From contig JAOUJW010000034.1 of the NCBI GenBank assembly GCA_029882975.1, positions 1 to 53,514 of the forward strand: 53,514 bases of DNA. Reading direction: 5' to 3'. The position numbers and the translations under genes are program-made. Each line of letters starts with the position of its first letter. Within the stretch, counting starts at the first letter, position 1. This document shows, in pieces, positions 6,212-50,643 of this stretch. The DNA comes from Gammaproteobacteria bacterium. GTDB taxonomy: Bacteria > Pseudomonadota > Gammaproteobacteria > SZUA-152. Under the pieces are notes generated by a model. That model did not search any database, had not been told where the DNA came from, and saw only the letters and a program-made list of their open reading frames with translations.

Positions 6212-9200
6212 ATGATGTTTACCAGCAAGCAAAGCAAATTACTACCGGTACTGCTGTTCAGTATGCTGTTTTTCAGCTTACCGATCCTGGCAGATGACTC
6301 GGACATCTACATTAACAATGTCCAGGGCAGCAGCACCAAGCCCTATGTCATGTTTATGTTGGATTATCAAACCAATTTGGGCTCATCGGCCTGCACCAGT
6401 GCCGGCCAGTGCGACAGTATTGCCGCTTACTTGCCGACCCTGGCAGCCGGTCAATCCTATACCAAGTTCGACGTCTTGCGCGCAGTGTTGAAAAAAGTAC
6501 TGGAGCCCTTGGGTGGTTTGAATATCGGCCTGATGATGAGCCATGCCCATGACCAGGGTTGCACCGGCCCCCTGGATTCCGGCTGCAGTGGCGGTGGCTA
6601 TGTGGTACAGCGCTTTTTGGAAATTCAGCCGGATGTTTTTGACGCAAGCGGCAACTTGGTTTCCCGTGACACCAACAAACAAGCCTTTCATGCCAAGCTT
6701 AACAATATCCCCATCCCCGGGGGAACGATTAATCACAGCTTTCAAGCCAAGGAATTGTACTGGGAATTCTATCGTTATCTGACGGCTCAAGGCGTGTGGA
6801 GCGGTCATTTGGGGTACCGGGATTTTGGTGACCGAACCGTAAGCACCAATCTCGATGACGCAAGCATTGCCGGCGGTCTGGCACTACGGGATATGGCAGC
6901 GGAAACCAATGCAGACGGACTTTACAACACGCCGGGCACCTACATCACCCCGTTCCGCCTGGTGCGTAACGGTAATGTGGTACCCGACCATTGCGCCAAG
7001 ATTTTCACCGTTAACTTCATGTTTCAAACCACATCCCAGGATGCGGACACCGATACCCAAATTCAAGCTACCACGGGTTTGAATTTTGGGCGAACCGGTG
7101 GTGGCGGTCCCGGTGCAGCCGCTTTCAGCAGCGACGATTTTCAGGCCTATTTGAACTGGCTCTACACCACCGACCTGATCGAACCGTTGGCGGGTAAACA
7201 AAACGTCACATCCTTTTTTATTGATTCCGTACCAGCGGACAACAGCGCCGACGGTTATGCCAATGCCGGTGGTACTTCATCAGCCTATGAGTGGTCTGAC
7301 GACCCGGAACAACTGGTAAAAACCCTGAGCAATATGTTCCGTGAAATACTCAGTGTCAGTACCACCTTTACCGCAGCATCAGTGCCGGTGAGCGTATTGA
7401 ACCGGGCAGAAATCATCGACAATGTGTATATTGCACTGTTCCGCGCGGATGCCGACGGCAAACCCCGCTGGCCCGGTAACCTGAAAAAACTGCGCCTGGA
7501 CCTGGCCGATCCCAACGCCTTGCTGAAAGACGCGAACAACGTTAATGCCGTCGCTCAGGACGGTCGCATCCACTATGACGCTTTAACTTACTGGACCGAC
7601 CCAGCCACACTTCCACCCGCCAATCCGGACCGCAACGAAGTGGCTGGCCGTGACGGACGCTCTGTGGCCCGTGGTGGCGCCGGGCAGAAAATTCCGGGTT
7701 TTCTGGGTGGAGACCCGGGCACCACCAATGCGGCCGGAAGCCGCATCCTGTACTATGAGGATACCAGCGATGCCACCACGCCGGTGAAAGCACTGGATGC
7801 GGGCACAGGATCCAATGTAGCCAGTGACACCTATTTCCAAACCAATATCGGTTCATTGGTTGACAGCACCAAGTATAGCTACACTGATATTGCACTATAC
7901 ATGCGTGGTTACGACCGCTCCGATGACGACGGCGATAACCAAGTCAACGAGGCCCGTCCTTGGATGTTGGGGGACCCGCTGCACTCCCGCCCCTTGCCCA
8001 TCAACTACGGTCAAAGCAATGGCGCCACCGTCCCGGATATTCGTATCTTCATGGGCGGCAACGACGGCTTTATGCACCAGTTTAAAAACACAGACAGCAC
8101 CGGCGGCCAGCTGGGCACGGAAGTATGGGGCTATATGCCGCGCCTCACCATGGGCATCCAACAACGATTGCTCTATAACCAGGTAGGAAGTCATCTCTAC
8201 GGTGTCGATGGTCCTCCCAGCGGCTTTGTTGAGTACGGCACCAATGGGGTGCCCACCACCGCCCGCATTTACTTCGGCTTACGCCGTGGCGGTAAGGGCA
8301 TGTATGCCCTGGACGTCACCAATCCGGACAGTGCACCGACAAAACTCTGGACCATTGAAAAAACCAGCGGCGGTCAATTTGATGAACTGGGCTTGACCTT
8401 TTCAGCACCCAGAGTCAGTTCCCTGGACGGTTATATTAACGTTACTACAGACAATACCGTTGTACCCAACGTAGTGACACGCACTGCGGTGGCTGTCTTT
8501 GCCGGTGGTTATGACGTCAATAAAGACACCCGTGCCGTGGTGGGCTCCGACGATACAGAAGGCAATGCCCTGTACATCGTCAACGCGGAAACCGGCGCCT
8601 TGATTTGGAAGGCGGTTAAAGGGACGAGCATCGGCTACGACCCCACCACGAAAACGTTTACCCACCCGCAGCTAACCGACAGCATCCCCAGTACGGTAAC
8701 CACAGCCGATGCCTACTTGAATGACGGTTTACTGGATCGGATTTACTTCGGTGATACCGGTGGCAAAATTTGGCGGGTGGATCTGCACCCGGCCGGTTCC
8801 GACTATATCGCACTATGGCCGGTGGCCAGCGTAGGTCGTCATGCCGAGGCCACTCCCACCAATGCAAACGACCGTCGCTTTTTCCATCGCATTGACTTTG
8901 TCCAGTTTAAAGACAACACCAGTCCCTATGATGGCATTATCGTCGGCTCCGGTGATCGTACCGATCCTTTAAGTACGGATACCAACAATGCCATGTTTAT
9001 GATCAAAGACCGGGAGATTTATCCTTACATGTACGGAGCCCCCGGCTTGCCCACGCGGACTTACATCTATGGCCCAGCTGCGAGCAGCCCACCGGCGGCC
9101 ATCACCACAGCTCAATTGGGTGATGTAACCAATAACTGCCTGCAGGATGCCAGCTGTGGCAACAATGTTCCCAGTCTGTATTACGGCTGGAAAATGTTTC

Positions 9201-34826: not shown

Positions 34827-36860
34827 TTAATTGGTATTCAGATCCACCCAACTAATATCATGCAGCCCAAAATCCACACTATGAGTCTCCCGAGTTTCCA
34901 CCACAATCACCTCCGGCTCTTCATTGTCCAGCCCCCACGGTAAAGGAACATCCGCAATATTAATGGAGACTTGATGAGCACCACAGCTCACCGGTGAAAA
35001 CTCATAGCGACCGTCGGCATCGGTTTTTGCCGAGTAAGACGCATCCAGATGCACAGTCACTCCCGCCAGGGGTTTCTCCGTAGAATCCCGTACAGCGTCA
35101 TTGTTGCTGTCAGCAAACACATAGCCCTGAATCGCGCCAAAGCCGTTACAGGCCCCGGGACCGGCAAAAACAGCGCTGCGCCGCCCCCAATCCTGATTGT
35201 ATTTCAGCGAGACCATGATGAACTGATTATTACTCACACTGTCCAGTACACTACTGTCCAGCGCATTTTTTTCCCATACCAATTCCGCATTCATAAGGAA
35301 GTTGCTGTCTATAAACCAATTGATATTAGAGTTAAGCGAGTAGTTACGCCCGTCATAAGCACTGCCCTGACGATATCCCAGCCCCGCTTTGCCACCTACC
35401 GAAAAATCCTGATAATGTCTGGATATAGCGATATTTACACTGGTATCGGATTCGGTTTCACCATTACGGGAACGTCGCTCCGCCAGCAACCCGACATTGG
35501 CTTGCATATCCAGTAAACCGGAAAACCCGTGATCCCAACTGAAGCGGACATCACTCACGTCACCACTATTGAGAGACCGGGTAATCGCCGTATTCCAGGA
35601 GCTGCGCCCCAGGGAAAACTTATGCCCCAAACCCATATTCAGGCCCAACAAACGGGTCCGGCGTTGATCCAAAACAAGCGACACACGCCCCTGTCCTTGG
35701 GTAATACGGGAAAACCGATAAAACCCGTGGCTGGAGAACTGCATTCGCCCCAAATCCGGGTCTGTTAAACTGCGATCCGCATCCAGTCCGAAGCCCAAAC
35801 CATAACTGCTCCGATTGTATCCTGCCTGCCAATAGGCACCACCGGAATCCGTGCGAACCGGTGCACTGTGGTCCACCCAGCGAAGCTCCGGGTCAAACCG
35901 AAAAACCCCATATTGATGAATCCAGCCTCGCAACAACGAGCGATTATCCAACCACAAACCCAGCCCCCCCCCCGGATTAGCCAACAGATGCACCTGACCC
36001 GAATAGCCGTACTCAGGTTTGCGGTAACGCAAACCACTGAGGACAGCCTGATGATCACTGGTGTTGTTGTTATAGCGAACATCGTTCAGTTGCCACCATA
36101 AGAGACCTCCTTCCAACCCCTCTCCCAGATGACCCGTCACGGAAACACCGGCAACCTCTCCCTGAGTCCGTTCAAACGTCGGGAACGTACTGCCTTTTAA
36201 GGTGCCCAGTTTCCCCCCCAAGAGGTGAATTTGGGCCTGTTCAGCGCTTAGTTGACTGCTGACCCCCTCAATCACGGGCAAGGACAAACGAAACCGGGGG
36301 GAATTGAGCAACATACCCGGATAACTCAGAAAATGCTGTCCCACACTGTTATCCATAGCCCAAGAACGATTCAAAGCAAAATCTTTTTGCTTTAGCCAAA
36401 AAGACGTATCACTGGCATATGGGTCTTGGGACACCGTGGTCTGCACCAATAATTTGCCGTAGCCCAAGCTTTCCTGCTGTAGTGTCAGACTCAGACCCTC
36501 ATCCTGTCTGGAACTTGAAACAGCTTGAGACTGACTCACTTTTCGATTGATATAACGCAAGTCCACATCAACGGCACCGGGTAACCACTGAGGCATAAGC
36601 TGCGGACCCGCCTCATATGCATAGTCATCCGCCACAGCCGTGGGATCGATGAGAGTGTCTGTATATTCCGGTTCAGGCTCTTGACCGGGAAGGGGTGTTT
36701 GCAGATTGACCCCGGTGCTGTTCACATCGATGAGCGCCAACTCTTTATCCGACAGCGTGTCTGATAGCTCCAATGCCCGAGTCGAAATCGTGAATAGCAG
36801 ACACACCAAACCCGGTACCAAAACCGTCGATAGCAATACTGTTAATTTTTTGCTCTCCAC
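34827..36860 (-). CDS. Outer-membrane beta-barrel with C-terminal SdrD/Cna-B-like domain (candidate alternative usher)
   Basis: 677 residues. GTG start, hydrophobic signal (KKLTVLLSTVLVPGLVCLLFTISTRA), an acidic linker, then about 450 residues of amphipathic strands typical of a beta-barrel (for example YNRSSYGLGFGLDADRSLTD, WNTAITRSLNSGDVSDVRFSW). It ends with an about 90-residue domain, GAIQGYVFADSNNDAVRDSTEKPLAGVTVHLD ... TDADGRYEFSPV, of SdrD-B/Cna-B type. Classical usher motifs (PapC N-domain, plug, two C-domains) are not recognisable. Placed opposite a chaperone and subunits, it may be the secretion pore of this locus, a role like that of ushers; this is inference. Confidence 0.65.
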   Translation of the reverse strand: MESKKLTVLLSTVLVPGLVCLLFTISTRALELSDTLSDKELALIDVNSTGVNLQTPLPGQEPEPEYTDTLIDPTAVADDYAYEAGPQLMPQWLPGAVDVDLRYINRKVSQSQAVSSSRQDEGLSLTLQQESLGYGKLLVQTTVSQDPYASDTSFWLKQKDFALNRSWAMDNSVGQHFLSYPGMLLNSPRFRLSLPVIEGVSSQLSAEQAQIHLLGGKLGTLKGSTFPTFERTQGEVAGVSVTGHLGEGLEGGLLWWQLNDVRYNNNTSDHQAVLSGLRYRKPEYGYSGQVHLLANPGGGLGLWLDNRSLLRGWIHQYGVFRFDPELRWVDHSAPVRTDSGGAYWQAGYNRSSYGLGFGLDADRSLTDPDLGRMQFSSHGFYRFSRITQGQGRVSLVLDQRRTRLLGLNMGLGHKFSLGRSSWNTAITRSLNSGDVSDVRFSWDHGFSGLLDMQANVGLLAERRSRNGETESDTSVNIAISRHYQDFSVGGKAGLGYRQGSAYDGRNYSLNSNINWFIDSNFLMNAELVWEKNALDSSVLDSVSNNQFIMVSLKYNQDWGRRSAVFAGPGACNGFGAIQGYVFADSNNDAVRDSTEKPLAGVTVHLDASYSAKTDADGRYEFSPVSCGAHQVSINIADVPLPWGLDNEEPEVIVVETRETHSVDFGLHDISWVDLNTN

Positions 36861-37118: not shown

Positions 37119-37406
37119 CTAGGATGGCTTCCCCTGCCGGGCTTTGCGAATCAGGCGCCGGGCACGTTGCACCTTGACCACACAATTTCGATATTTTCCA
37201 AACTGTTTTTGTACGGCTGCACCGGTCAACAAGCCGGCAGCTTTTGCAAAGGCAATGGAACCACCAAAACCTTGCACTTTCGCTGCAGCCAGTTCCTTAT
37301 CAGCCTTCACCAGGCCCTGGGCGCATTGTGACTCCTGAGAGGCAATGGCACCGGCACAATAAAAGGTAAACAACAACGCTAATAAAACACTTCCAGCTTG
37401 CTTCAT
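37119..37406 (-). CDS. Small secreted protein downstream of bacteriohemerythrin
   Basis: 95 residues with signal peptide KQAGSVLLALLFTFYCAGAIAS. The mature part is basic and helical (GLVKADKELAAAKVQGFGG ... QRARRLIRKARQGK) with two cysteines (SQCAQ and RNCVV). Its ATG overlaps the stop of the bacteriohemerythrin gene by one base (TAATG), with AAGGAG seven bases before, so the two are translated together. No family recognised. Confidence 0.6.
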   Translation of the reverse strand: MKQAGSVLLALLFTFYCAGAIASQESQCAQGLVKADKELAAAKVQGFGGSIAFAKAAGLLTGAAVQKQFGKYRNCVVKVQRARRLIRKARQGKPS

Positions 37407-37813
37407 TAAGCCGCTCCTTGCTGCTTCATATGGGGAACATAGGCTTTATCGATTTCCAGGATATGGTGCCTAAGCCAGTTTTTTAGGAATTCCAGCGCCT
37501 CTTGGGCCACCACTTGACCTTGCTCGTAGTGATCCAACAGCTGCATGGCTTTCACATTAAAAGCATCATGTTCCTGCTTGTGTTCTGCGGTTTCGGGGTA
37601 GCTGAAGCGCTGAAACATCTCCTCTTCCATAATAAAATGGTTCATGGCGTATTCCACCAGTCCTGCCAAGATATCTCCGACCACACCGTTGTCCGGTTGA
37701 TCTTTACTGATTTCATCGTGCAGTTTATTGGTTGCATCCACCAACCAATGATGTTGCGTATCAACCTCGTTGATTTCGAGAATAAATTCGTCGTTCCAAG
37801 GCATAAAAGTCAT
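37406..37813 (-). CDS. Bacteriohemerythrin
   Basis: 135 residues. The non-haem di-iron ligands are all present: His21 (TQHHWL), His59 and Glu63 (MNHFIMEEE), His78 and His82 (EHKQEH), His117 and Asp122 (RHHILEIDK). It binds O2 reversibly, as in Methylococcus McHr and others, and may deliver oxygen or sense it. GGGAGAG lies 7 bases before the ATG. It forms an operon with the small secreted protein downstream. A consensus CRP-type site lies 116 bp upstream. Confidence 0.93.
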   Translation of the reverse strand: MTFMPWNDEFILEINEVDTQHHWLVDATNKLHDEISKDQPDNGVVGDILAGLVEYAMNHFIMEEEMFQRFSYPETAEHKQEHDAFNVKAMQLLDHYEQGQVVAQEALEFLKNWLRHHILEIDKAYVPHMKQQGAA

Positions 37814-39694: not shown

Positions 39695-40096
39695 CTTAAT
39701 TCCTCTCCAAATATATAGGATTCAATTAAATTCAAAGATATTGTAGACCATATCTTCACTTTGTCTCTTAAAGTTTTAATTTTTAAGCCGATTGAGTTTA
39801 TTTTGTGTGAACCACTTATTATTTTTTAGATATGAATAACACAACACCCTTTCCTTTAGTGGTTGAATTTTATTCATTTTTGACTGCTTCCAATCGATAT
39901 CCTTGAACTATTCCATCGCGTGTAAAAGCCATGGCCAGAAGCCTGGGAGCATCCTATTGGATTGCAGAACCGAAATCAACGGTATGAGATGAAGGAGAAT
40001 GCCAATCTGGTCACACGATGAACAATACGATTAATAATCAACCATAAATTTCGTGCGTTAAGATTCTTACGATGAAAAAGATCCAAGTTTATAAAG
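39695..40096. other. AT-rich intergenic region upstream of the porin gene
   Basis: About 400 bp with no visible gene. The first 150 bp are very AT-rich and probably contain the porin promoter and control sites. The next 200 bp hold nothing I can name. Confidence 0.4.
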
Positions 40097-40129
40097 TCGC
40101 GCCAATGAAAAGTTGATTCATTGGCGCGA
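40097..40129. terminator. Strong stem-loop at the end of the ligase/TPR/barrel locus
   Basis: TCGCGCCAATGAA-AAGTTGA-TTCATTGGCGCGA, a 13-bp perfect stem, 31 bp after the stop of the barrel gene. The following tract is only CTTTAT, so termination may be weaker than the stem suggests. Confidence 0.6.
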
Positions 40130-40160
40130 TTTGTTATGGTGCACGTTCAGACAAGGCGCT

Positions 40161-41339
40161 TTAAAATTCCCAGGTTCCACCTAACCACAAAATACTGCGA
40201 TCAAACTGGTAGCGCTGATCCGAGGAGTTTTCGTTCCAGTGTTGAAGCTGGGCAAAAAGCATTTTGGTATCATCCCATTGGTAATCATAATTGACTTTCA
40301 AATGAGTACCGTAGTATTTCTTTTGATTTTCGTTGGGATCGTCGTATGCAAAGGCATTGGGATAATCCCGGTGCCAAACGGCAAAATCCAGTTTCAACAT
40401 CTGGCGCGGATCGATTTCATACTTTAAGCGAGTACGCAGTTTGTTTTTGGTGTAATCGTAGTAGCCCTGGTAGGGATCCTGCCGCAACTTATACTGATAA
40501 TCCAAATGCAGCACCATCGCCTTACTAAGACGCTGACGCAGGTGAACGCCGATGTCGTGGTAACGAAATTCACGCAACACATTCACATAAGCCGCGTTGG
40601 CATCTCGCGCCGACAACTCATCGTAAGATATGGTGTAGTAGTGATAGGACATGCCCAATTTGCTTGATCGAGCCATACGAAACTTCACTTCACCGCCCAT
40701 ATTGAAATAACCGTAATCATACTCTTTTATTCCGGCGATTTTTTCATATTTGCGATTATAGAGATCCATGTCAAAAGAGTATTGGGGGCTGGTGGTACGG
40801 GATTTATAGTCAAAATTTATACCGGATTGAGTATAGCGATAGCGTTGTGAAATATCGGTTGTCCCGACGAGTTTTTCATCTCCCGTATCGCGATCCACAT
40901 ATGAATCGATATTATTGACATATTTGAAACCCACATAGAACTTTTTATCCAGGCTTCGCTTTCGGGAAATAATGTGTTCGTTGCCAAACTTCATTAAGAA
41001 CTTGGTGTTGTCCGCATTTCTGTATTTGGAATCCAGATACAAATCCTTGAGTAACAACACGGACCCTTGCAGCCGGTTGTCCTCATTGGTAGAGTGGTCC
41101 AGCTTGCCCCGTAAGCGTACCGGCAAAAACAAACCGGACTGCACTTTAGGGTCAACCGGCGCTCCCGCTGCGACATCAAAGTATGGGTCGCTGGGTGCTC
41201 GATAGATATTGCTGTCAAAAGCCAGTGCAGCTTTGGCCTCCCATCCATTTGGGGCGGAATCTTCTCCATCATCGGCACCATAGACAGGTGAAACCAATAC
41301 CGCCAGCAACCCTATCCATGCCAACTTACTTCTATTCAT
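40161..41339 (-). CDS. Outer-membrane beta-barrel of the ATP-grasp/transglutaminase locus
   Basis: 392 residues. ATG 41339 has GGAG eight bases upstream. Signal MNRSKLAWIGLLAVLVSPVYGADD, then many amphipathic strands with paired Tyr/Lys (KKFYVGFKYVNNIDSYV, RTRLKYEIDPRQMLKLDFAVWHRDY, HLKVNYDYQWDDTKMLFAQLQHW), ending LWLGGTWEF with terminal Phe. No specific porin family is recognised. It starts 34 bp after the TPR gene and is the last gene of the minus-strand locus. It is the natural outer-membrane end of the system. Confidence 0.7.
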   Translation of the reverse strand: MNRSKLAWIGLLAVLVSPVYGADDGEDSAPNGWEAKAALAFDSNIYRAPSDPYFDVAAGAPVDPKVQSGLFLPVRLRGKLDHSTNEDNRLQGSVLLLKDLYLDSKYRNADNTKFLMKFGNEHIISRKRSLDKKFYVGFKYVNNIDSYVDRDTGDEKLVGTTDISQRYRYTQSGINFDYKSRTTSPQYSFDMDLYNRKYEKIAGIKEYDYGYFNMGGEVKFRMARSSKLGMSYHYYTISYDELSARDANAAYVNVLREFRYHDIGVHLRQRLSKAMVLHLDYQYKLRQDPYQGYYDYTKNKLRTRLKYEIDPRQMLKLDFAVWHRDYPNAFAYDDPNENQKKYYGTHLKVNYDYQWDDTKMLFAQLQHWNENSSDQRYQFDRSILWLGGTWEF

Positions 41340-41373
41340 GACAATATCTCCACGTTTAACGACACTAGTGCCT

Positions 41374-43290
41374 TTATTGCAATTCACTTAATTGTTGATT
41401 GATTTCTTTGTTGTCCGGATCCAGTTTCTTTGCCTTCAACAATTCTTTACGTGCCTGCGCCTTGTCACCGGAATCCAATAAAGCCATCGATAAGCTGAAG
41501 CGAAGATCCGCTCGATTAGCATCGAGACTTACAGCTTCGCGCAATACCGCCACCGCCCTATTGGGCTGTTTTGCCCCCTGATAAACTGCAGCCAAAGCGC
41601 TGCGCGCCTTGACGCTTTCACTATCAAGAGTCAGTAGTTGCAAAAAGGCCTCTTCGGCTTTCTCCCATTGTTTTTGCCTGTACAGGACACTGCCCAGGTT
41701 ATTCCAAGCCTGAGCATAGCTGGGATCTTTTGCCAAAATTGCTTCATAGGCGGTAATGGCCTTGTTCTCCTGGTTTTTTCGTGAATACTGAACCGCCAGG
41801 TTCAGCATGGCCTTCAAATAGTTGGGCCGAATGCTGACGGCTTTCTCGTAAGCCGTAATGGCTTCGTCAACTCTTTCCTGACGACTGAATACCAGCCCCC
41901 GGTTAAACCAGGCTTGTGCATATTGCGGCTTAATCTCAATTGCCTTTGCAAAAGCGGCATCCGCTTTAGAATAGTTTTTGTTTTTCAGATAGAGCTGCCC
42001 CAGGTTGTACCAGGCTTGCGGATAAGCTTTTTTAGCTTCAATTGCTTTTTTATAGTAGATTATGGCCTTGTCATATTGCCGCATGGCTTTATACGCCAAA
42101 CCGATGTTTAAATAAGCCTTGGGATAATCCCCTGACTTCATTGCTACTGCTTTTTCGTATTCCGCAATAGCTAGCTTATAATCTTTTATACCGTATGCCA
42201 CACGTCCCAGATTAAAGCGGGCCGTCGCGTTATTCGGCTCTTCGCTCAGAGCCTTCTCAAACCGAATCCGGGCATCCGACCAACGCTTCTGCTCCAGGAA
42301 AACCAATCCTAAGTTTATGCGTGCTTTTGTGTATTGGGGATTGAACTGCAAGGCTTTTTCATAATACTGCAAAGCATTATCCAAATCCGCAGCGTCAAAG
42401 TACACCGTTGCAATTCGAAAATACGCCGGAGGATAATTGGGTACCAAATCCAGAACTTTATGGTATTGCGCTATACGTTCCTTGCGCCCTTCAGCGGTCT
42501 CTGGCTCCAGCGCTGCCAGAGCAAAACGCGCTTTTATGTAGTCTGGCCGGATACGAACGGCTTGATTGAACACCTTACGCGCAATCGACCACTGCTTTTT
42601 ACCTATAGCCTTATAGGCAAGCCCAAGGTTGTACAGCGCCTTGGCCTTGCGTTTGCCGCCGGCCATGCTTTTGGCTTTTTCCAAGGTGGTAACCGCCTTG
42701 GCGTACAACTTCATCTTTAAGTAAGTCACGCCCATATTCAGGTGGGCTTCAAAGTGATGTGGTACCGCACGGATCAGGCTCTCATAGTCCTGCAGCGCCC
42801 GCTCATAATCCCCACGCTTCAGGTAAACCAAGCCCCGATTTAAATATGCCGAGACATCCACCGGCTTGGTTTTCAGGGCTCGATTGAATTGTGACAAGGC
42901 CTGTTTGCGATCCCCCTTGCGATAATAAAACAGCCCCAGATCATTGTAGGCAGCTGAGCTCTTGTGTTTCTGCAGTAACTGCTGATAGATGGACTCCGCC
43001 TCATCCCAGTGAGATTGGACGATCAACGCTTCGGCCTTTTGCAATTGAACACGATCATCCGAAGGTCGCGCCGGTTGCAGATCTATCGTATTGCCCGCAT
43101 CGGCTATATCGCCCGCGTCATCTTCATCATCGTTTTGGGCATCTGTACTGCTGATTTCTATGACAACCACTTTATCGGCATTACTTCTGCTTTCAAACTC
43201 CACATAGCCCAACAACACAAACAAAGCTAACAACACCAATAACACAGGCACGAAGCTTTCACGCCAGATTTTTAATTGCAGGCTATTCAC
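41374..43290 (-). CDS. Membrane-anchored TPR protein of the ATP-grasp/transglutaminase locus
   Basis: 638 residues from GTG 43290, which overlaps the ligase stop (GTGACCGTGAATAG) and has GGAAGGTGG before it. A short cytoplasmic start (MNSLQLKIWRE) and one helix (FVPVLLVLLALFVLLGYVEF) are followed by an acidic linker (NDDEDDAGDIADAGN). About 15 TPR units follow in tandem, with the usual W/L/G/Y/A/P spacing (KAYLNIGLAYKAMRQYDKAIIYYKKAIEAKK and so on). The whole repeat region should be periplasmic. TPR rods of this sort recruit peptides or proteins; here they could bridge the inner-membrane pair (TG-7TM and ligase) and the barrel. Confidence 0.85.
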   Translation of the reverse strand: MNSLQLKIWRESFVPVLLVLLALFVLLGYVEFESRSNADKVVVIEISSTDAQNDDEDDAGDIADAGNTIDLQPARPSDDRVQLQKAEALIVQSHWDEAESIYQQLLQKHKSSAAYNDLGLFYYRKGDRKQALSQFNRALKTKPVDVSAYLNRGLVYLKRGDYERALQDYESLIRAVPHHFEAHLNMGVTYLKMKLYAKAVTTLEKAKSMAGGKRKAKALYNLGLAYKAIGKKQWSIARKVFNQAVRIRPDYIKARFALAALEPETAEGRKERIAQYHKVLDLVPNYPPAYFRIATVYFDAADLDNALQYYEKALQFNPQYTKARINLGLVFLEQKRWSDARIRFEKALSEEPNNATARFNLGRVAYGIKDYKLAIAEYEKAVAMKSGDYPKAYLNIGLAYKAMRQYDKAIIYYKKAIEAKKAYPQAWYNLGQLYLKNKNYSKADAAFAKAIEIKPQYAQAWFNRGLVFSRQERVDEAITAYEKAVSIRPNYLKAMLNLAVQYSRKNQENKAITAYEAILAKDPSYAQAWNNLGSVLYRQKQWEKAEEAFLQLLTLDSESVKARSALAAVYQGAKQPNRAVAVLREAVSLDANRADLRFSLSMALLDSGDKAQARKELLKAKKLDPDNKEINQQLSELQ

Positions 43291-44206
43291 GGTCACCACC
43301 TTCCGCACCCAATGGCGACAAATCCTCCAATAAACCACGCAGGCCCAGCATATTGGCATTTTGTATTTCTATTCCGGGACGCACGTTGATCTCCAATACT
43401 TTGGGTCCCGATGACTCCAGAGCAATGTCAATGCCCAAGTATTTCAAAGGTACGGTGTGCGCCACGGTTTGCGCTATTTCTAGAATGTTGTCCCAATAGG
43501 GTATTTGTGCGCCAATCAACGACTGGCCGGAATCGGGATGTTGCTGTATCGCGCGTCCGTCATGGATGGCATGGCGGGTAATGCCCGTCTCCATATCAAC
43601 CCCCATTCCCACTGCACCCTGGTGTAAATTGGCAGTACCGCGGGACGCCTGAGTCGCCAGACGAATCATGGATAACACCGGCTGATGATCACATACAACC
43701 ACCCGCACGTCCGCCAAACCGTAGGGACTAAGCCGGGTTATCTGATCGTGCTGTTTTAAGCGCTCCTCCACTATTGCTTGATCGTTTAGATCAAAACTGT
43801 AAACACCAAACAATATATCCGAAATGTGTTTGCGCAACTGCTCTTCGCTGTATTGCGTACCACCGACACTGATCCAACGATCGCCCCGGCGTTGTGCAAT
43901 TACAATGATTCCGCCCCCACCCCGGCCTGATGCCGGCTTGATCACAAACTCGTTGTGAGGTGCCAAATCCTGTGACAATTGACTCATGCCGTAGAAGGAG
44001 TCATAAACCAAATACGTTTTAGGTACCGGGACACCGTGTTGCGCCAACACGCCTTTTGTTTTGAGCTTGTTATCCGCCAAAGGGAAATGACGACGTTGAT
44101 TGCGCGGATAAATATAGGACAGATTACGCTGATTGATGCTCAGTACGTCACCCCATGCTTCGCCGGCTTCGCGCATACGTTTAAAGACTTGCTTCAAACC
44201 AAACAT
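43283..44206 (-). CDS. RimK-like ATP-grasp ligase (alpha-L-glutamate ligase-like family)
   Basis: 307 residues from ATG 44206, which shares one base with the upstream stop (TGATG). ATP-grasp motifs are in order: NEFVIKPASGRGGGGIIVI (ATP Lys and Gly-rich loop), QAIVEERL, LADVRVVVCDHQPVLSMIRLAT, and LKYLGIDIALESSGPKVLEINVRPG (Mg ligands Asp, Glu, Asn). The family is the RimK-related ligase found in Vibrio and Pseudomonas, of unknown function. It should join an amino acid or amine to a carboxylate, forming an amide bond. No signal or membrane segment, hence cytosolic. Confidence 0.88.
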   Translation of the reverse strand: MFGLKQVFKRMREAGEAWGDVLSINQRNLSYIYPRNQRRHFPLADNKLKTKGVLAQHGVPVPKTYLVYDSFYGMSQLSQDLAPHNEFVIKPASGRGGGGIIVIAQRRGDRWISVGGTQYSEEQLRKHISDILFGVYSFDLNDQAIVEERLKQHDQITRLSPYGLADVRVVVCDHQPVLSMIRLATQASRGTANLHQGAVGMGVDMETGITRHAIHDGRAIQQHPDSGQSLIGAQIPYWDNILEIAQTVAHTVPLKYLGIDIALESSGPKVLEINVRPGIEIQNANMLGLRGLLEDLSPLGAEGGDRE

Positions 44207-45795
44207 CAAGCACTCGCCTTGTTGAATATCAGGCCGCGAAAACGGTAGAACTCTGACAAACGCATGCCGACCCATTTACCCAGCCACAGATTCAGTGCCA
44301 CAATGACCAACAGCAGTTCGGGAAACGCCAATATCATGCTTTGCAAGAATAGTGAATCCATCACAACATAGGCAGCTGCGATGACCATCAAGGTGGAGGC
44401 GGTGATTTTAAACGCCTTGCGCCATCCCTGCTCAGTTTCTATGATCGCAAAGCGCTCTGCTGTTATGGCTAAAATGGCAATAGGAAACAAGGTAATATGC
44501 GCCAGTTCAAACAAACCAAACTGCACCCCTAATACGGTCATAATTAACATGACAATCACAACAGTGGTCAACATAATCGCCATCTTGGGAGAATGCAGTA
44601 ATTGCATCGAATCCAAAACCCGCCGAACCAGAGAGGAAATCAGGATAATCAAGGTAAACCCGATTGCACCCCACAACAACCCGGTTTCCCGCGAAGCGGC
44701 TGCAATCAAGGCGGGTAAAAATGTACCGAAAGTCTCTACTCCGATCACGTTTCTGAATATCACCACCACAAAAGCACCCAGGGGAATCATGAGCAAAATC
44801 TTAAGTAAATTTTGCGAGATGCCCACGCGCTCGAACACCGAATAGATATTTAAAATATTAAACGATGACTTACTCAGAGACTGTTGTACCTCCGCCTGGG
44901 GCACAAGACGTTTTAGAATTTTAAAATTGTATTGAAAGTTCACATTGGTCGTGTGCTTAAACAATACCTGATCACCATAATACAAACTGACAAAATTGGC
45001 CGGGATTTCTGCGAAGTGATCGTTGATGGTGTCGAAGGGTACCCAGTGACCATTAACATAGACCTCAACCCATTGGTGGCTGGTACGCTTGGAGCCGGGA
45101 TTGAGAATCAACCCTCCCACCAGACGCGCAGGTAAATTGAGCTTTCTGGCCATGGCCACAAACAATCGGCCCTTGCCGTTGCAACTGGCCTCCCCCAGCT
45201 TTAAGGCGGTGAGGGCATCGGTAAAACCGGAGAAATTACGATTGGCAAACTTATCCTGTAAATGCCGATGAATGGCTGTTAAGGCCGGTTTAATATTGGG
45301 CTCCGACCCCAGAATTTTTGCCAACTCCAGCTCAATCAAAGGATCATTAACCGGTACGCCCGGCTCTGAGAGCAGATACTTTTGCAGCAATTGGGGGTAG
45401 CTGTTTGGAATGGGTGCATTTTCCGGCAATACATAACGTACATGTCGCCCCAATACAGAATAGTTGTAGCGCACGGTCTGATTCCCTGAAACCGAATCCG
45501 CTGTCCATTGCGCCATGCGATTTAGTGCGTCAGACTGCAAGCCCAGGGAAAACAAACCCGGTGAACTTTGCTCGTCCATAATTTTTTGCCGCGCATCAGA
45601 CCGGGGTAAAAAAGTCCCCAGCTGAATATCATCACCATGACCATCCACCTGCAGCGTGATGTCCACATTATAACTCACGGCAGGAATCAACCCGGAAACG
45701 GTATAGTCCAGTATGTATAACTTGTAGATCATTAAAGAGGCGGGCAGCAACAGCGATACCAGCAATAGAATGGAATACCCAAGATTTTTATTCAT
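44206..45795 (-). CDS. Transglutaminase-like protein fused to seven transmembrane helices
   Basis: 529 residues. A signal-anchor helix (7-27) leads into a periplasmic part of about 290 residues and then about seven helices (331-505). The periplasmic part contains a transglutaminase core with Cys205 (GEASCNGKGR), His240 (SHQWVEVYVNGHW) and Asp255 (PFDTINDHF). This architecture is the known transglutaminase-7TM family often called inactive; here all three catalytic residues are present. Translationally coupled (TGATG) to the ATP-grasp ligase, the usual partner of this family. Possibly a peptide-processing or cross-linking sensor in the periplasm. The usual third partner, a retropepsin-like zinc protease, is not in the window. 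Confidence 0.88.
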   Translation of the reverse strand: MNKNLGYSILLLVSLLLPASLMIYKLYILDYTVSGLIPAVSYNVDITLQVDGHGDDIQLGTFLPRSDARQKIMDEQSSPGLFSLGLQSDALNRMAQWTADSVSGNQTVRYNYSVLGRHVRYVLPENAPIPNSYPQLLQKYLLSEPGVPVNDPLIELELAKILGSEPNIKPALTAIHRHLQDKFANRNFSGFTDALTALKLGEASCNGKGRLFVAMARKLNLPARLVGGLILNPGSKRTSHQWVEVYVNGHWVPFDTINDHFAEIPANFVSLYYGDQVLFKHTTNVNFQYNFKILKRLVPQAEVQQSLSKSSFNILNIYSVFERVGISQNLLKILLMIPLGAFVVVIFRNVIGVETFGTFLPALIAAASRETGLLWGAIGFTLIILISSLVRRVLDSMQLLHSPKMAIMLTTVVIVMLIMTVLGVQFGLFELAHITLFPIAILAITAERFAIIETEQGWRKAFKITASTLMVIAAAYVVMDSLFLQSMILAFPELLLVIVALNLWLGKWVGMRLSEFYRFRGLIFNKASA

Positions 45796-45943
45796 ATAAG
45801 AAATTACTAAAAGAACAATGTGTTAAATTCGAAAAGAAATGTAACACTTATAATAGCTTAATCTCTGTGGGATTGAATTAAGCTGTCATTAAGAACGTAA
45901 AAACCGCCGACCGTTTCGCACAATAGCTATAATTGCCAACCAC

Positions 45944-46471
45944 TTAGAGAACAGCCGTTTGCAACGCCGCGGGAAAACTGGAACTGTCGAGAGGGTCGGT
46001 GCCGGAACGCACCTCAACCAGATTGGAAAACCCGTCTATATCGGCGTCATAATCGCGGTTTAAGTCGTTATCCGTCAGGATTATCTCGGATATTTGACCA
46101 TCCGCCACTGTTACGTCCGTAACAACAGTTGCCAACAGCAGATCCGTGTCCGCCAAAACAATAAAATAGCGCACTATCAAGACATGGTCGCCGGGAGCCA
46201 CATTATCCATGCGGCCACTAATACTGTTATCGATGTCACTGACGCTGAGCTCCACCACGCGCTGCCCGTCGAGAATCAATTGTGCCCGCAAACCGGCAAT
46301 TAAAGGGTCCCCCAGAGCCGCCGGCGCCATAAAACTCAAGATCATACGGTCTCCGTCATACTCCACACTATCCTGGCTACAGGCGAATAAGGGCAAACAC
46401 AAACAAGCCACGCAAAATCGCAAAACGCCACGAAGCGATGTTATCCCCGGTCGGTGAGCACCAAACATCAT
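45944..46471 (-). CDS. Lipoprotein with thrombospondin type-3-like calcium repeat
   Basis: 175 residues from ATG 46471, which overlaps the upstream stop (TGATG). Signal with lipobox CLPLFACSQD. The mature part has a beta-rich region (RMILSFMAPAALGDPLIAGLRAQLILDGQRVVELSVSDIDNS). It ends in DNDLNRDYDADIDGFSNLVEVRSGTDPLD, an acidic calcium loop of type-3 repeat/dockerin-like form (DxNxDxDxDG...E...GTDP). Function unknown; it forms a pair with the next gene and precedes the transglutaminase locus by 148 bp. Confidence 0.7.
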   Translation of the reverse strand: MMFGAHRPGITSLRGVLRFCVACLCLPLFACSQDSVEYDGDRMILSFMAPAALGDPLIAGLRAQLILDGQRVVELSVSDIDNSISGRMDNVAPGDHVLIVRYFIVLADTDLLLATVVTDVTVADGQISEIILTDNDLNRDYDADIDGFSNLVEVRSGTDPLDSSSFPAALQTAVL

Positions 46472-47094
46472 CAAAAAAACCGCCACGGACTGGGCCCCGA
46501 AATTACAATGGTCCCACCATCACTGCTCTCATCATCTTTATTGGCTGCCGCAACAATGGCGCCCGTGACCAGCACCCCCACGGCCACCCAGACCCAGGTG
46601 CTGGTCGCCGCCGGCTTCTTGGAGCCGGCTGTAACAGCTGCGGTTGGCGGTGGGCTATCCAACGCCACGGCACCTCGCACGGGAACGGACAAGGGTGAAA
46701 AAGGATTGCCGTGCTGCACCGTATTGCCTGCCTGATCCACCGCCTGAATATAGTACTCCAATCCCGGGACGATTAATTCCAGTTCATCCACCACGGCAGT
46801 GTAAAGGGCGGAATCGGCTACGGGGTTCATGGTACGAACTCTAAAAGTCTCCGTGCCCTTTACCCGATAGTACAGTTCCACAGTTTTTACGCCGCCGGAG
46901 TCCGTCACCGTCGCCGATATAGCCAGCGGCCCGGTTTTTTCCGCCATATCAACAGGAAGATGGTGTTGAACTTGTGGAGCCTGAGTATCCTCATCCGCCG
47001 CCACAGAAAAATGCATGGGCACCAGAGTCAACAGGCTGCACAACAACCGGATGGCTCCCCCCATCAACTGCTTCCGTTTCATTAACTTATTCAA
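46471..47094 (-). CDS. Ig-like domain protein with C-terminal transmembrane helix
   Basis: 207 residues. Signal peptide GGAIRLLCSLLTLVPMHFSVAAD, then an Ig/fibronectin-like domain about 33-145 (PLAISATVTDSGGVKTVELYYRVKGTETFRVRTM ... YYIQAVDQAGNTVQHG). A Pro/Ser linker and a helix (STWVWVAVGVLVTGAIVAAAN) follow, and a short acidic tail ends in GPSPWRFF. The V-x-x-V-x-L-Y-Y-R ... D-x-x-G-N motif is typical of FlgD-type Ig domains. TTG start with AAGGTG six bases upstream; ATG 47082 is an alternative. First gene of the coupled pair upstream of the transglutaminase locus. Confidence 0.7.
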   Translation of the reverse strand: MNKLMKRKQLMGGAIRLLCSLLTLVPMHFSVAADEDTQAPQVQHHLPVDMAEKTGPLAISATVTDSGGVKTVELYYRVKGTETFRVRTMNPVADSALYTAVVDELELIVPGLEYYIQAVDQAGNTVQHGNPFSPLSVPVRGAVALDSPPPTAAVTAGSKKPAATSTWVWVAVGVLVTGAIVAAANKDDESSDGGTIVISGPSPWRFF

Positions 47095-47938: not shown

Positions 47939-48430
47939 ATGGCAAAATTGAACATTAACGGCAAAGAGGTCGATATTGATGTGTCCGGATCAACCCCTCT
48001 GCTCTGGGCAATTCGCGAGCAATTGGGCCTGACGGGCACAAAATACAGTTGCGGCATCGGTGTATGCGGCGCTTGCACCGTCCATATCGACGGCAAAGCC
48101 GTGCGATCCTGCAGCATCAAGGTTGATTCCATTGGCGCATCGCAAAAAATCACCACCATAGAAGGACTTTCAGAGAACAACAATCATCCCCTGCAGCAGG
48201 CCTGGGCTGAATTGGATGTACCTCAATGCGGCTATTGCCAACCCGGCATGATCATGGCCGCCGCTGCCCTGCTTAAGGATAATCCCAATCCCAGTGACGC
48301 AGACATAGATGCAAATATAAGCAATATTTGCCGCTGCGGCACCTTTAACCGGGTACGTCGTGGTATTCACTTAGCTGCCGGTAAAGCCCAGGGACGAACC
48401 CAGGAACAAACCCAGGGAGAGCCCAAGTGA
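47939..48430 (+). CDS. iorA: Isoquinoline 1-oxidoreductase-type 2Fe-2S subunit
   Basis: 163 residues with two [2Fe-2S] centres: CGIGVCGACTVHIDGKAVRSC (plant type) and QCGYCQPGMIM...NICRCGTFNRVRRGI. It is the electron-transfer small subunit of the molybdenum hydroxylase encoded next. GGAGG lies seven bases before the ATG. The end is a small 12-bp tandem repeat (CCCAGG words) that encodes a Gln/Thr-rich tail. Stop overlaps the next start (GTGA). Confidence 0.92.
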   Translation: MAKLNINGKEVDIDVSGSTPLLWAIREQLGLTGTKYSCGIGVCGACTVHIDGKAVRSCSIKVDSIGASQKITTIEGLSENNNHPLQQAWAELDVPQCGYCQPGMIMAAAALLKDNPNPSDADIDANISNICRCGTFNRVRRGIHLAAGKAQGRTQEQTQGEPK

Positions 48431-50643
48431 AACCGGATGATCAGCCTATACCAATTTCCCGACGGGAGTTTCTCGTTCGCAGCAGTGCCGTAGGCGCGGG
48501 ACTGGCCGGTTTTTCTCTGGGGCTGTATATACCTTTTCACAGTTCCCAACTGGCAGCCGCCGCCGGCGTAAAAGTGGAAGCGATGGTCCCTCCGGAAGTG
48601 AACGCATGGGTGGTTATCCAGCCCGATGATACGGTTATTATTCGCATCGCCCGCTCCGAAATGGGCCAAGGCAGCCTGACCGGCTTGGCGCAGTTAGTGG
48701 CAGAAGAACTGGAATGCGACTGGTCTAAAGTGAAAACCGAATACCCCACCCCGGGACAAAACCTGGCTCGGGACAAAGTCTGGCGCAGTTTTTCCACCGG
48801 CGGCAGTCGCGGCATTCGCGACAGCCATCTATACGTTCGTAAAGGCGGCGCTGCTGCCCGGCATATGTTGATGGAAGCGGCCGCCGAACAATGGGAAGTA
48901 CCGATGGACGAATGCCAAGCCGTCAACAGCGTTATTACCCATATACCCAGTGGACGCCACACCACCTATGGACAGGTAGCCGCAGCGGCAGCCCAGTTAT
49001 TCCCACCGGAACATGTCACGTTAAAAGAACCCAAAGACTGGAAACTCATCGGTAAACCGGTCAAACGCCTGGATACCGTTGATAAACTCAATGGAAAGCA
49101 AATATTTGGAGCGGACGTTAGCTTGCCCGGCATGCTCAATGCGGCCATTAAAGCCTGCCCGGTGTTTGGCGGCAAACTGAAATCTTTCGACGCAAAAATC
49201 GTGAGTAACATGGCGGGAGTGCGACATATCCTGCCTGTAGAAGATAATGCAGTCGCGGTCATTGCTGACACCTGGTGGCAGGCACATACCGCATTACAAG
49301 CCCTGCCCATCAACTGGAGCAAAGGCCGTAACTCCAAAGTCAGTAGCGCCTCTATCAGTAAATGGCTCGACAAAGGCTTGAAACGAGGCAAAGCCTTTGT
49401 GGGCAACAAAAACGGAAACGCCAAAAAAGCTCTAAAACGCGCCTCCAACCACATAGAAGCCACCTACTCCTATCCCTACCAGAACCACGCCACCATGGAA
49501 CCCATGAACGCCACGGCTTTATGGAATGAAGACCGATGCGAAGTTTGGTGCCCTACCCAAAATGGCGAGGCGGCGCTGGAGGCCACAGCAAAAGCAGCCG
49601 GCCTGCCCATAGAAAAATGCGAAGTCTATAAAATTCATTTGGGTGGAGGCTTTGGGCGCCGTGGCGCTTTTCACGATTTTGTCACCCAGGCCGTTTCCAT
49701 TGCCAAACAAATACCCGGCACTCCCGTTAAATTATTGTGGAGCCGTGAGGAAGACATGCAACACGGTCACTACCACCCGATTACCAAGTGCAAACTGAGC
49801 GGCGGTTTTGACAAAAAAGGTAACTTGACCAGCTTACGCGTGCGCATATCCGGACAATCCATACTGGCCTCAGTGTTCCCGCATATGCTCGCCAAAGGCG
49901 CCGATATGATCACTTTCCAGGGCTTATTGCCGGACGGGGATCACGCCATCAGCTATAGTATCCCCCACTTACTGGTGGAACACGCTATGCGCAATCCGCC
50001 GGTACCACCGGGGTTCTGGCGCGCGGTCAACATGAATCAGAACGCCATATACATGGAATGTTTTATGGACGAACTGGCTCATGCCGCCGGCAAAGACCCT
50101 TTGGAGTTTCGCCGTCAATTAATGACCAAACATCCCAAAAGCCTGGCAGTACTCAATGCCGTCGCGGAAAAAGCCGGTTGGGGCACACCCGCCGGTGAAG
50201 GTATTTTCCGTGGCCTGGCCGTATGTAATACCTTCGGCAGCTTTGTGGCCGCCTGCGCGGAAGTTTCGGTGGACCCGGAAGGTAAACTGAAAATTCATCG
50301 CATTGTTGCCGCCACCGATCCGGGTTACGCGGTAAACCCGCAGCAAATTGAAGCCCAAGTCGAAGGATCCTTTGTCTACGGATTGTCTGCTCTGCTCTAT
50401 GGCGAATGCACTATTAACAGTGGCGCGGTGGAGCAAAGCAACTTTAATGATTACCCTTCCTTGTTAATGGCAGAGATGCCCAAGGTGGAAACCATTGTCA
50501 TGCCTTCCGGGGGATTCTGGGGCGGAATCGGCGAACCCACCATTGCGGTTGCGGCTCCGGCGGTGCTTAATGCCATTTTTGCGGCCACCGGCAAACGGAT
50601 ACGTGAAATACCGTTGAAACACGCAAACTTAAGCCATAGCTGA
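48427..50643 (+). CDS. iorB: Isoquinoline 1-oxidoreductase-type molybdopterin-binding subunit
   Basis: 738 residues with a twin-arginine signal SRREFLVRSSAVGAGLAGF (11-29), so it is exported folded with its cofactor. RSEMGQGSLTGLAQLVAEELECDW, FSTGGSRGI, LGGGFGRRGAFHDFVTQA (about 404) and GGFWGGIGEPTIAVAAPA (near 700, Glu in GEP is the catalytic base) place it in the IorB/aldehyde oxidase group with cytosine-dinucleotide Mo cofactor. Substrate unknown: N-heterocycle or aldehyde. It overlaps iorA by four bases. No cytochrome partner or XdhC/MocA-type maturation gene is in the window. Confidence 0.92.
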   Translation: MKPDDQPIPISRREFLVRSSAVGAGLAGFSLGLYIPFHSSQLAAAAGVKVEAMVPPEVNAWVVIQPDDTVIIRIARSEMGQGSLTGLAQLVAEELECDWSKVKTEYPTPGQNLARDKVWRSFSTGGSRGIRDSHLYVRKGGAAARHMLMEAAAEQWEVPMDECQAVNSVITHIPSGRHTTYGQVAAAAAQLFPPEHVTLKEPKDWKLIGKPVKRLDTVDKLNGKQIFGADVSLPGMLNAAIKACPVFGGKLKSFDAKIVSNMAGVRHILPVEDNAVAVIADTWWQAHTALQALPINWSKGRNSKVSSASISKWLDKGLKRGKAFVGNKNGNAKKALKRASNHIEATYSYPYQNHATMEPMNATALWNEDRCEVWCPTQNGEAALEATAKAAGLPIEKCEVYKIHLGGGFGRRGAFHDFVTQAVSIAKQIPGTPVKLLWSREEDMQHGHYHPITKCKLSGGFDKKGNLTSLRVRISGQSILASVFPHMLAKGADMITFQGLLPDGDHAISYSIPHLLVEHAMRNPPVPPGFWRAVNMNQNAIYMECFMDELAHAAGKDPLEFRRQLMTKHPKSLAVLNAVAEKAGWGTPAGEGIFRGLAVCNTFGSFVAACAEVSVDPEGKLKIHRIVAATDPGYAVNPQQIEAQVEGSFVYGLSALLYGECTINSGAVEQSNFNDYPSLLMAEMPKVETIVMPSGGFWGGIGEPTIAVAAPAVLNAIFAATGKRIREIPLKHANLSHS

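Follow-up and report, generated by a model that had tools for sequence, protein, structure and literature searches.

A four-gene envelope unit conserved across bacterial phyla, sister to RloB-RloC by sequence comparison, and its possible role in peptide export

In Pseudomonas aeruginosa, the rloABC genes encode a secreted retropepsin, an inactive transglutaminase protein with seven transmembrane (TM) helices (7TM) and an ATP-grasp protein. The accessible part of the report on these genes (PMC12239564) states that RloA cuts poly-glutamate (poly-Glu) of at least eight residues in vitro, that rlo mutants are affected in cell shape, β-lactam sensitivity and hypoosmotic survival, and that deletion of rloB or rloC rescues rloA mutants, fully for growth in low salt and in part for the other defects. 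Here we analyse a related locus in a 53,514-nucleotide stretch of gammaproteobacterial DNA (contig JAOUJW010000034.1), the whole of which we refer to as the window. An initial annotation had joined a transglutaminase-7TM gene (TG7), an ATP-grasp ligase gene, a tetratricopeptide repeat (TPR) gene and an outer-membrane barrel gene into a single envelope system, together with two genes just upstream; all six genes, their strand and their junctions were confirmed from the open frames. Judged by their neighbourhoods in other genomes, TG7, ligase, TPR and barrel are one conserved unit, beyond local coincidence. The four genes are as follows.

44206-45795, minus strand: TG7 gene; Pfam matches PF14402, PF01841 and PF14400
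43283-44206, minus strand: ATP-grasp ligase gene, RloC/RimK-related; Pfam matches PF14397 and RimK
41374-43290, minus strand: TPR protein gene with a GTG start; many TPR families and ten TPR_2 stretches (Pfam)
40161-41339, minus strand: outer-membrane barrel gene with an ATG start; signal peptide and 16 predicted strands, without a curated family

TG7 and the ligase gene share one base in a TGATG junction (44208-44204), the ligase and TPR genes overlap by eight bases (43290-43283), and 34 bases separate the TPR gene from the barrel gene.

Relatives were gathered in two samples, and every open frame around them was compared with profiles. Searching the class with TG7 gave matches in 79 of 369 genomes, 78 of which were examined (G363 was left out); two of them held two loci, and removal of L197 and L198, which matched in the transglutaminase (TG) domain only, gave a class sample of 78 loci. 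The identities showed a sharp gap, with seven places at 60-100% (window included) and the rest at 25-38%. The TG7 of G181, at 36% identity, scored far above the remaining matches, and a fragment at 46% proved to be part of a split gene of G318 (L042), where TG7 lies in two frames and a frame-free profile search found all four parts. The second sample, from a scan of a genome collection with the close clade, took the best 80 of 110 relatives, most of them metagenome-assembled genomes. Dropping L060, L063, L065, L078, L087 and L092, which are contigs of class-sample loci, gave 74 non-duplicate loci; L044, whose TG7 is cut by the contig end, was left out. The scan used two patterns inside the TG domain, one with the histidine and the other with the aspartate, so that Cys-His counts and TG-domain conservation are inflated in these rows. 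Eight named loci had no TG7 in the open reading frame (ORF) call and were missing from the context clusters; the frame-free search recovered all of them. TPR genes were counted above a 45-bit threshold, within 2.5 kb and on the same strand, and the matches in L155 (31 bits) and L165 (29 bits) fell below it.

Fifty loci of the second sample had at least 5 kb of sequence downstream; a ligase gene was found in all 50, a same-strand TPR gene in all 50 and a barrel gene in 47. Co-occurrence of the TPR and barrel genes with the pair, on which the initial annotation had staked its proposal, is therefore a property of many genomes. All four parts were present in 52 of the 74 loci, spread over eight phyla. 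The TG7 proteins themselves (73 of 74, L123 being too short) came from Pseudomonadota (34), Myxococcota (18), Bacteroidota (8), Nitrospirota (5), Spirochaetota (3), Campylobacterota (2), Calditrichota (1), Bdellovibrionota (1) and one unassigned record; in Campylobacterota, L089 alone showed the full set, its barrel gene being cut by the contig end. The distance matrices of the four proteins were correlated (rho 0.56 to 0.90, n = 53), with none of 200 permutations as high. A profile of the barrel matched 8 of 339 genomes of the class, seven of which carry the unit. G197 has a second, weak barrel match on C61 (E 3e-9). In G380, contigs C195 (L213) and C106 (L217/L044) both carry a C-terminal part of TG7, and this genome may hold two units or mixed strains. 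A tblastn search found no relative on viral contigs.

The genes are also found fused and rearranged. TG7 and the ligase form one gene in 14 loci. The only locus with a TPR-barrel fusion is in a spirochaete (L112): here the gene immediately upstream of TG7 encodes the barrel, preceded by a TPR-like stretch whose Pfam scores are weak and below threshold, and another TPR gene comes after the ligase. In L129, too, the barrel is upstream, and L121 has its TPR gene ahead of TG7 and its barrel gene after the ligase. Some units have one more TPR protein, a lipoprotein that gave YfiO-type matches; it lies upstream in L039, L040 and L073 and between the TPR and barrel genes in L101 (six proteins were scanned, and the lipobox was judged by eye). 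A set that outlasts such reshuffling speaks more strongly for joint function than a single frozen operon would. Co-occurrence, correlated divergence and the two kinds of fusion thus bear out, in outline, the idea of a single system.

The profile matches and a tree place TG7 and its ligase as relatives of RloB and RloC, in a separate subfamily that keeps the catalytic Cys and His; by the same comparison the unit is a widely spread sister of RloB-RloC. In the class sample, Cys and His were kept in 8 of 78 loci and not kept in the other 70. RloA was found within 3 kb of none of the eight but of 65 of the 70 others (Fisher 5e-8), lying at most 300 bp from TG7 in 64 of these 65 and upstream on the same strand in 59; the five others without RloA were L154, L156, L170, L176 and L183. 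The opposite held for the added genes, since a TPR gene adjoined all eight Cys-His loci and none of the 70 (Fisher 4e-11), and a barrel gene adjoined seven of the eight and none of the 70 (Fisher 3e-9). L180, one of the 70, has a 95-bit TPR match too distant to be counted (about 3.5 kb). In the second sample no RloA was found within 3 kb of any of the 74 loci, 62 of which have at least 1 kb of upstream sequence. A tree built without the TG columns, from which L042, L194 and L196 were left out, split the two groups by one branch (SH-aLRT 98.6, by a quick method). Mean conservation within the unit TG7s was highest in the TG domain (0.73, inflated by the pattern-based sampling) and 0.62 in the 7TM domain, whereas in the other TG7s the TG domain was among the least conserved parts (0.47; 7TM, 0.65).

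Like RloABC, the unit has a 7TM protein with a periplasmic TG-like domain and an adjacent gene for an RloC-type ATP-grasp ligase. Ligase residues K90, E147, D260, E272, N274 and R276, present in more than 90% of rows in both subfamilies (78 and 59 rows), and 7TM residues R348, G352, G357, P361, P438, E447 and R448 are shared with the RloA-linked loci sampled. As the ligase site is the same in both, the two probably share their chemistry and differ in what becomes of the product. Unlike RloABC, in which the RloB transglutaminase is inactive, the unit keeps Cys and His in its TG domain, has no RloA found beside it, and adds TPR and barrel genes. It also reaches far beyond the Proteobacteria, where the accessible text of PMC12239564 puts 96% of RloB hits. 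Absence of the usual retropepsin partner from the window, as first annotated, holds up, with no PF05618 match on its contig and none found beside the unit elsewhere; it is better read as the mark of a separate subfamily than as a lost part, because the TG domain keeps its catalytic residues. The pair had also been called one of unknown function. That is no longer wholly so, since the rescue of rloA mutants by rloB and rloC deletions already ties such pairs to a phenotype, as far as the available text of PMC12239564 goes.

The window's genome carries both systems: it has PF05618 retropepsin matches on contigs C43 and C5, and C5 also holds an RloB-like gene next to genes for RloA and RimK. This second TG7 (L045, 10108-13289; about 80108-83289 of C5) is catalytically dead; its neighbours, a RimK gene on one side and an RloA-type gene on the other, are both on the opposite strand. 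In G033 the two kinds of TG7 likewise occur together, RloA accompanying the second. The presence of both in one genome indicates that the two are not simply interchangeable.

In TG7 of the window, an N-terminal TM helix is followed by a periplasmic β-sandwich and TG-like domain and then by the 7TM domain. PF14402 scored 189 bits against a cut-off of 25 and was found in all 68 members of alignment A2; the RloB model NF052267 gave 171.9 bits, far below its cut-off of 900. The catalytic residues C205, H240 and D255 are all present, together with N258, and C205, H240 and N258 are invariant in the 68 rows, of which all but the window's came from the pattern-based scan, so that the His and Asp letters are not independent evidence there. 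The Cys-His pair is the papain-like active site of the transglutaminase-like cysteine peptidase/transferase superfamily. The third catalytic residue in the 74 named loci is Asp in 56, Gly in 8 and Cys in 10. Many of the 18 replaced domains (L095, L097, L098, L100, L103, L105, L106, L109, L111, L115, L125-L128, L130-L132 and L134) are from Myxococcota, and most loci with a TG7-ligase fusion are among them. N258 stays where the third residue is Cys or Gly, which suggests a Cys-His-Asn arrangement in those domains. By helix count, the TG7 C-terminus would lie in the cytosol, in agreement with the ligase being fused at that end.

A sequence search of the Protein Data Bank (PDB) gave no match for TG7. 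The best structural match to its AlphaFold2 (AF2) model (predicted local distance difference test, pLDDT, 93.5) was 3isr, annotated as a putative cysteine protease, which aligned over residues 39-301, the whole periplasmic part (Z 24.7, root-mean-square deviation 3.1, 255 residues aligned); transglutaminases matched with Z of about 10 to 11. The predicted fold would fit either cutting or linking. Residues 354-481 of the 7TM domain matched 8a1t_D, a chain of the sodium-pumping NADH:quinone oxidoreductase, at Z 8.2, within the noise for helical folds, and an internal repeat in this domain was not supported. The ligase scored 262 bits against TIGR02291, under its cut-off of 314.2, and a PDB sequence search returned weak matches to RimK entries and nothing else. 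In the TPR protein, an N-terminal membrane anchor and an acidic linker precede a basic TPR rod. No Pfam family matched the barrel protein; its AF2 model (pLDDT 92.3) has 16 strands behind the signal peptide and matched porin-type structures, both general and substrate-specific. An AlgE-type fold was considered and set aside, since many 16-strand porins match; AlgE was among the best ten in Foldseek, where it did not stand out, and was absent from the 50 matches listed in a second structure search.

Exopolysaccharide exporters such as AlgK/AlgE, PgaA, BcsC and PelB combine a periplasmic TPR scaffold with an outer-membrane barrel. The unit resembles them in its TPR scaffold and predicted 16-strand barrel, fused in L112, and in the accessory TPR lipoproteins described above. 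It differs in that a Pfam scan of the four window proteins found no glycosyltransferase synthase, the cytosolic enzyme being a peptide ligase, and in that its barrel is not assignable to the families of those exporters. From this likeness and the published poly-Glu link of rlo, we infer the identity of a product and its path: through the 7TM domain, cut or linked in the periplasm, guided along the TPR rod and out by the barrel. We favour, at somewhat less than an even chance, the view that the four genes form one envelope-spanning machine, sister to RloB-RloC, that makes, transports and secretes a peptide-like product. In such a machine the cytosolic RloC-type ligase would build or extend a short non-ribosomal peptide, most likely rich in glutamate and hence acidic, and the 7TM domain would pass it into the periplasm. 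There the Cys-His domain would cut or trans-amidate it, and the membrane-anchored TPR rod would guide it to the barrel for release outside the cell. The product of the canonical rlo system would be kept in the periplasm for trimming by RloA; the unit would secrete its own, much as AlgK/AlgE, PgaA and BcsC do with sugars.

The added outer-membrane barrel and the intact Cys-His domain point to a transported product. Acidic-peptide export is favoured, for the window proteins, by the net charge of the TPR protein (+34 from residue 81 on) and of the predicted inward-facing barrel residues (+12). The initial annotation had anticipated short substrate peptides nearby, an expectation that was not borne out, as no ORF of 18-110 residues within 1.5 kb was common to more than three loci; we count this in favour of the proposed machine. 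Still more tentative is the broader proposal that the unit is the peptide counterpart of synthase-dependent exopolysaccharide secretion, a dedicated trans-envelope system by which diderm bacteria would secrete a polymer of non-ribosomal peptide. Its parts might then be a TPR-barrel exit and an ATP-grasp synthase to which a 7TM carrier is coupled or fused, a division of labour we hold with the same reserve; the carrier could possibly contain a built-in periplasmic cysteine peptidase or cross-linker.

Several observations weigh against secretion of an acidic peptide by such a machine. Charge fails as general evidence for an acidic substrate, since what holds for the window proteins does not hold across relatives: whole-frame net charge ran from -40 to +93 in TPR proteins (n = 59) and from -29 to +85 in barrels (n = 57), with extremes that are perhaps due to over-long reading frames. 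A simple test detected an N-terminal hydrophobic segment in only 49 of 68 TPR frames, although some of these frames may begin upstream of the true start. Generic porins match the barrel just as AlgE does. No barrel gene was detected in L043, L084, L124 and L138, which have room for one, and in G167 a barrel stands without the rest of the unit. A profile comparison gave no support for homology of the 7TM domain to PgsC/CapC, the score of 22.8 being no better than block-shuffled controls of up to 24.9, with only eight PgsC-type domains in the profile. Product, substrate and direction of transport are, in sum, unproven proposals. The barrel of G167, at 7559-8659 on the minus strand of L236 (contig C19), is of the same family, with no TG7, ligase or TPR gene found beside it; the sole TG7 match of that genome (L156) is inactive and without RloA.

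The alternative that survives best, although we consider it unlikely, is envelope modification, in which a ligase-made peptide is flipped by the 7TM domain and attached by the Cys-His domain to peptidoglycan, the TPR rod or the barrel, the latter two serving as scaffold and target, and the envelope is tuned to osmotic stress. The shape, β-lactam and hypoosmotic phenotypes of rlo mutants in the accessible text of PMC12239564 fit this idea, as does the increased vesiculation on disruption of a Shewanella inactive-transglutaminase gene, described in the part of PMC12096838 consulted. Transglutaminases also share the TG7 fold; the best fold match, however, is annotated as a putative protease, and a dedicated barrel and a TPR-barrel fusion look like transport. 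It is less likely again that the TG domain simply replaces RloA, supplying a cysteine peptidase in cis for the same periplasmic product, with TPR and barrel as later additions. The lack of a detected RloA beside intact Cys-His loci (0 of 8 and 0 of 74) speaks for such a replacement, whereas the TPR gene is as constant as the ligase gene, the barrel gene nearly so, and both the window's genome and G033 keep a second TG7 with RloA. Uptake seems more improbable still. Here barrel and TPR rod would import acidic peptides for cutting by the Cys-His domain and entry of the pieces through the 7TM domain, as the resemblance of the barrel to general and substrate-specific porins would allow, but this leaves the ATP-consuming ligase, the very gene fused to TG7, without a clear role, and the Pfam scan of the four proteins gave no TonB-type match. 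That the genes are neighbours by chance, or belong to a cluster passed on locally with no shared function, might be suspected from the little-conserved genes further out and the patchy distribution (3 of 24 genomes of the window's order), an explanation already refuted by the conservation of the set in eight phyla with correlated divergence, rearranged orders and fusions.

Among other systems, the PgsBCA/CapBCA poly-gamma-glutamate synthase couples a cytosolic amide ligase of Mur type to a polytopic membrane protein. The unit shows the same coupling, with an ATP-grasp ligase in place of the Mur-type enzyme. Proteins of 1073-1079 residues with two CapC (PF14102) domains per chain were encountered at L207 (2093-5332), L208 (2769-6002) and L209 (2787-6008); a second large ORF follows, and the parts scanned (two of three) had no other Pfam match. 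The unit ligase shares the RimK-type fold with RimK/RimB, which act in cytosolic ribosome modification and are not known to have membrane or barrel partners (PMC12239564, in part). The 'inactive transglutaminase' of polymorphic toxins is of another architecture in the accessible part of PMC3482391, and that of PMC12419801 has no bearing on the unit. We found no prior description of the unit in the open-access library searched, which does not prove that it is unpublished. A 2009 amidoligase survey by Iyer and colleagues may touch on neighbourhoods of this kind.

Three further features flank the unit.

46471-47094, minus strand: Ig-like protein gene; open frame in the window
45944-46486, minus strand: TSP3-type lipoprotein gene; open frame in the window
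40097-40129, minus strand: hairpin with a 13-pair stem, 3' of the barrel gene (fold of 40060-40165, z -3.5)

The initial annotation had drawn the Ig/lipoprotein pair into the system. Genes around 85 other loci (73 with the unit) gave no BLAST match to either protein. The Ig protein has homologues in 8 of 185 genomes of the class, the window's included; among the remaining seven, G101 alone also carries the unit, on a different contig. Given these distributions, we prefer to treat the pair as an operon of its own, upstream of the unit; the gap between the lipoprotein gene and TG7 is 148 bases. The hairpin is a probable transcript end of the unit. It was not listed by the terminator scan, and the numbers of promoter-like and terminator-like sites were not above those of shuffled sequence. 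Elsewhere in the window, a small 2Fe-2S-like subunit gene overlaps a large molybdenum hydroxylase-like gene (47939-50643, plus strand; by eye), and the minus strand encodes a short bacteriohemerythrin-like protein (37406-37813; by eye) and a secreted-looking protein of 677 residues with a C-terminal SdrD-B-like/carboxypeptidase-regulatory-like domain (34827-36860; Pfam).

In Pseudomonas, RloB and RloC are important for tolerance of stress and for the response to antibiotics. The comparison of the two subfamilies suggests a link between the loss of Cys-His catalysis and association with RloA. The sister system described here would offer a direct route to the product, through comparison of secreted peptides with and without the barrel.

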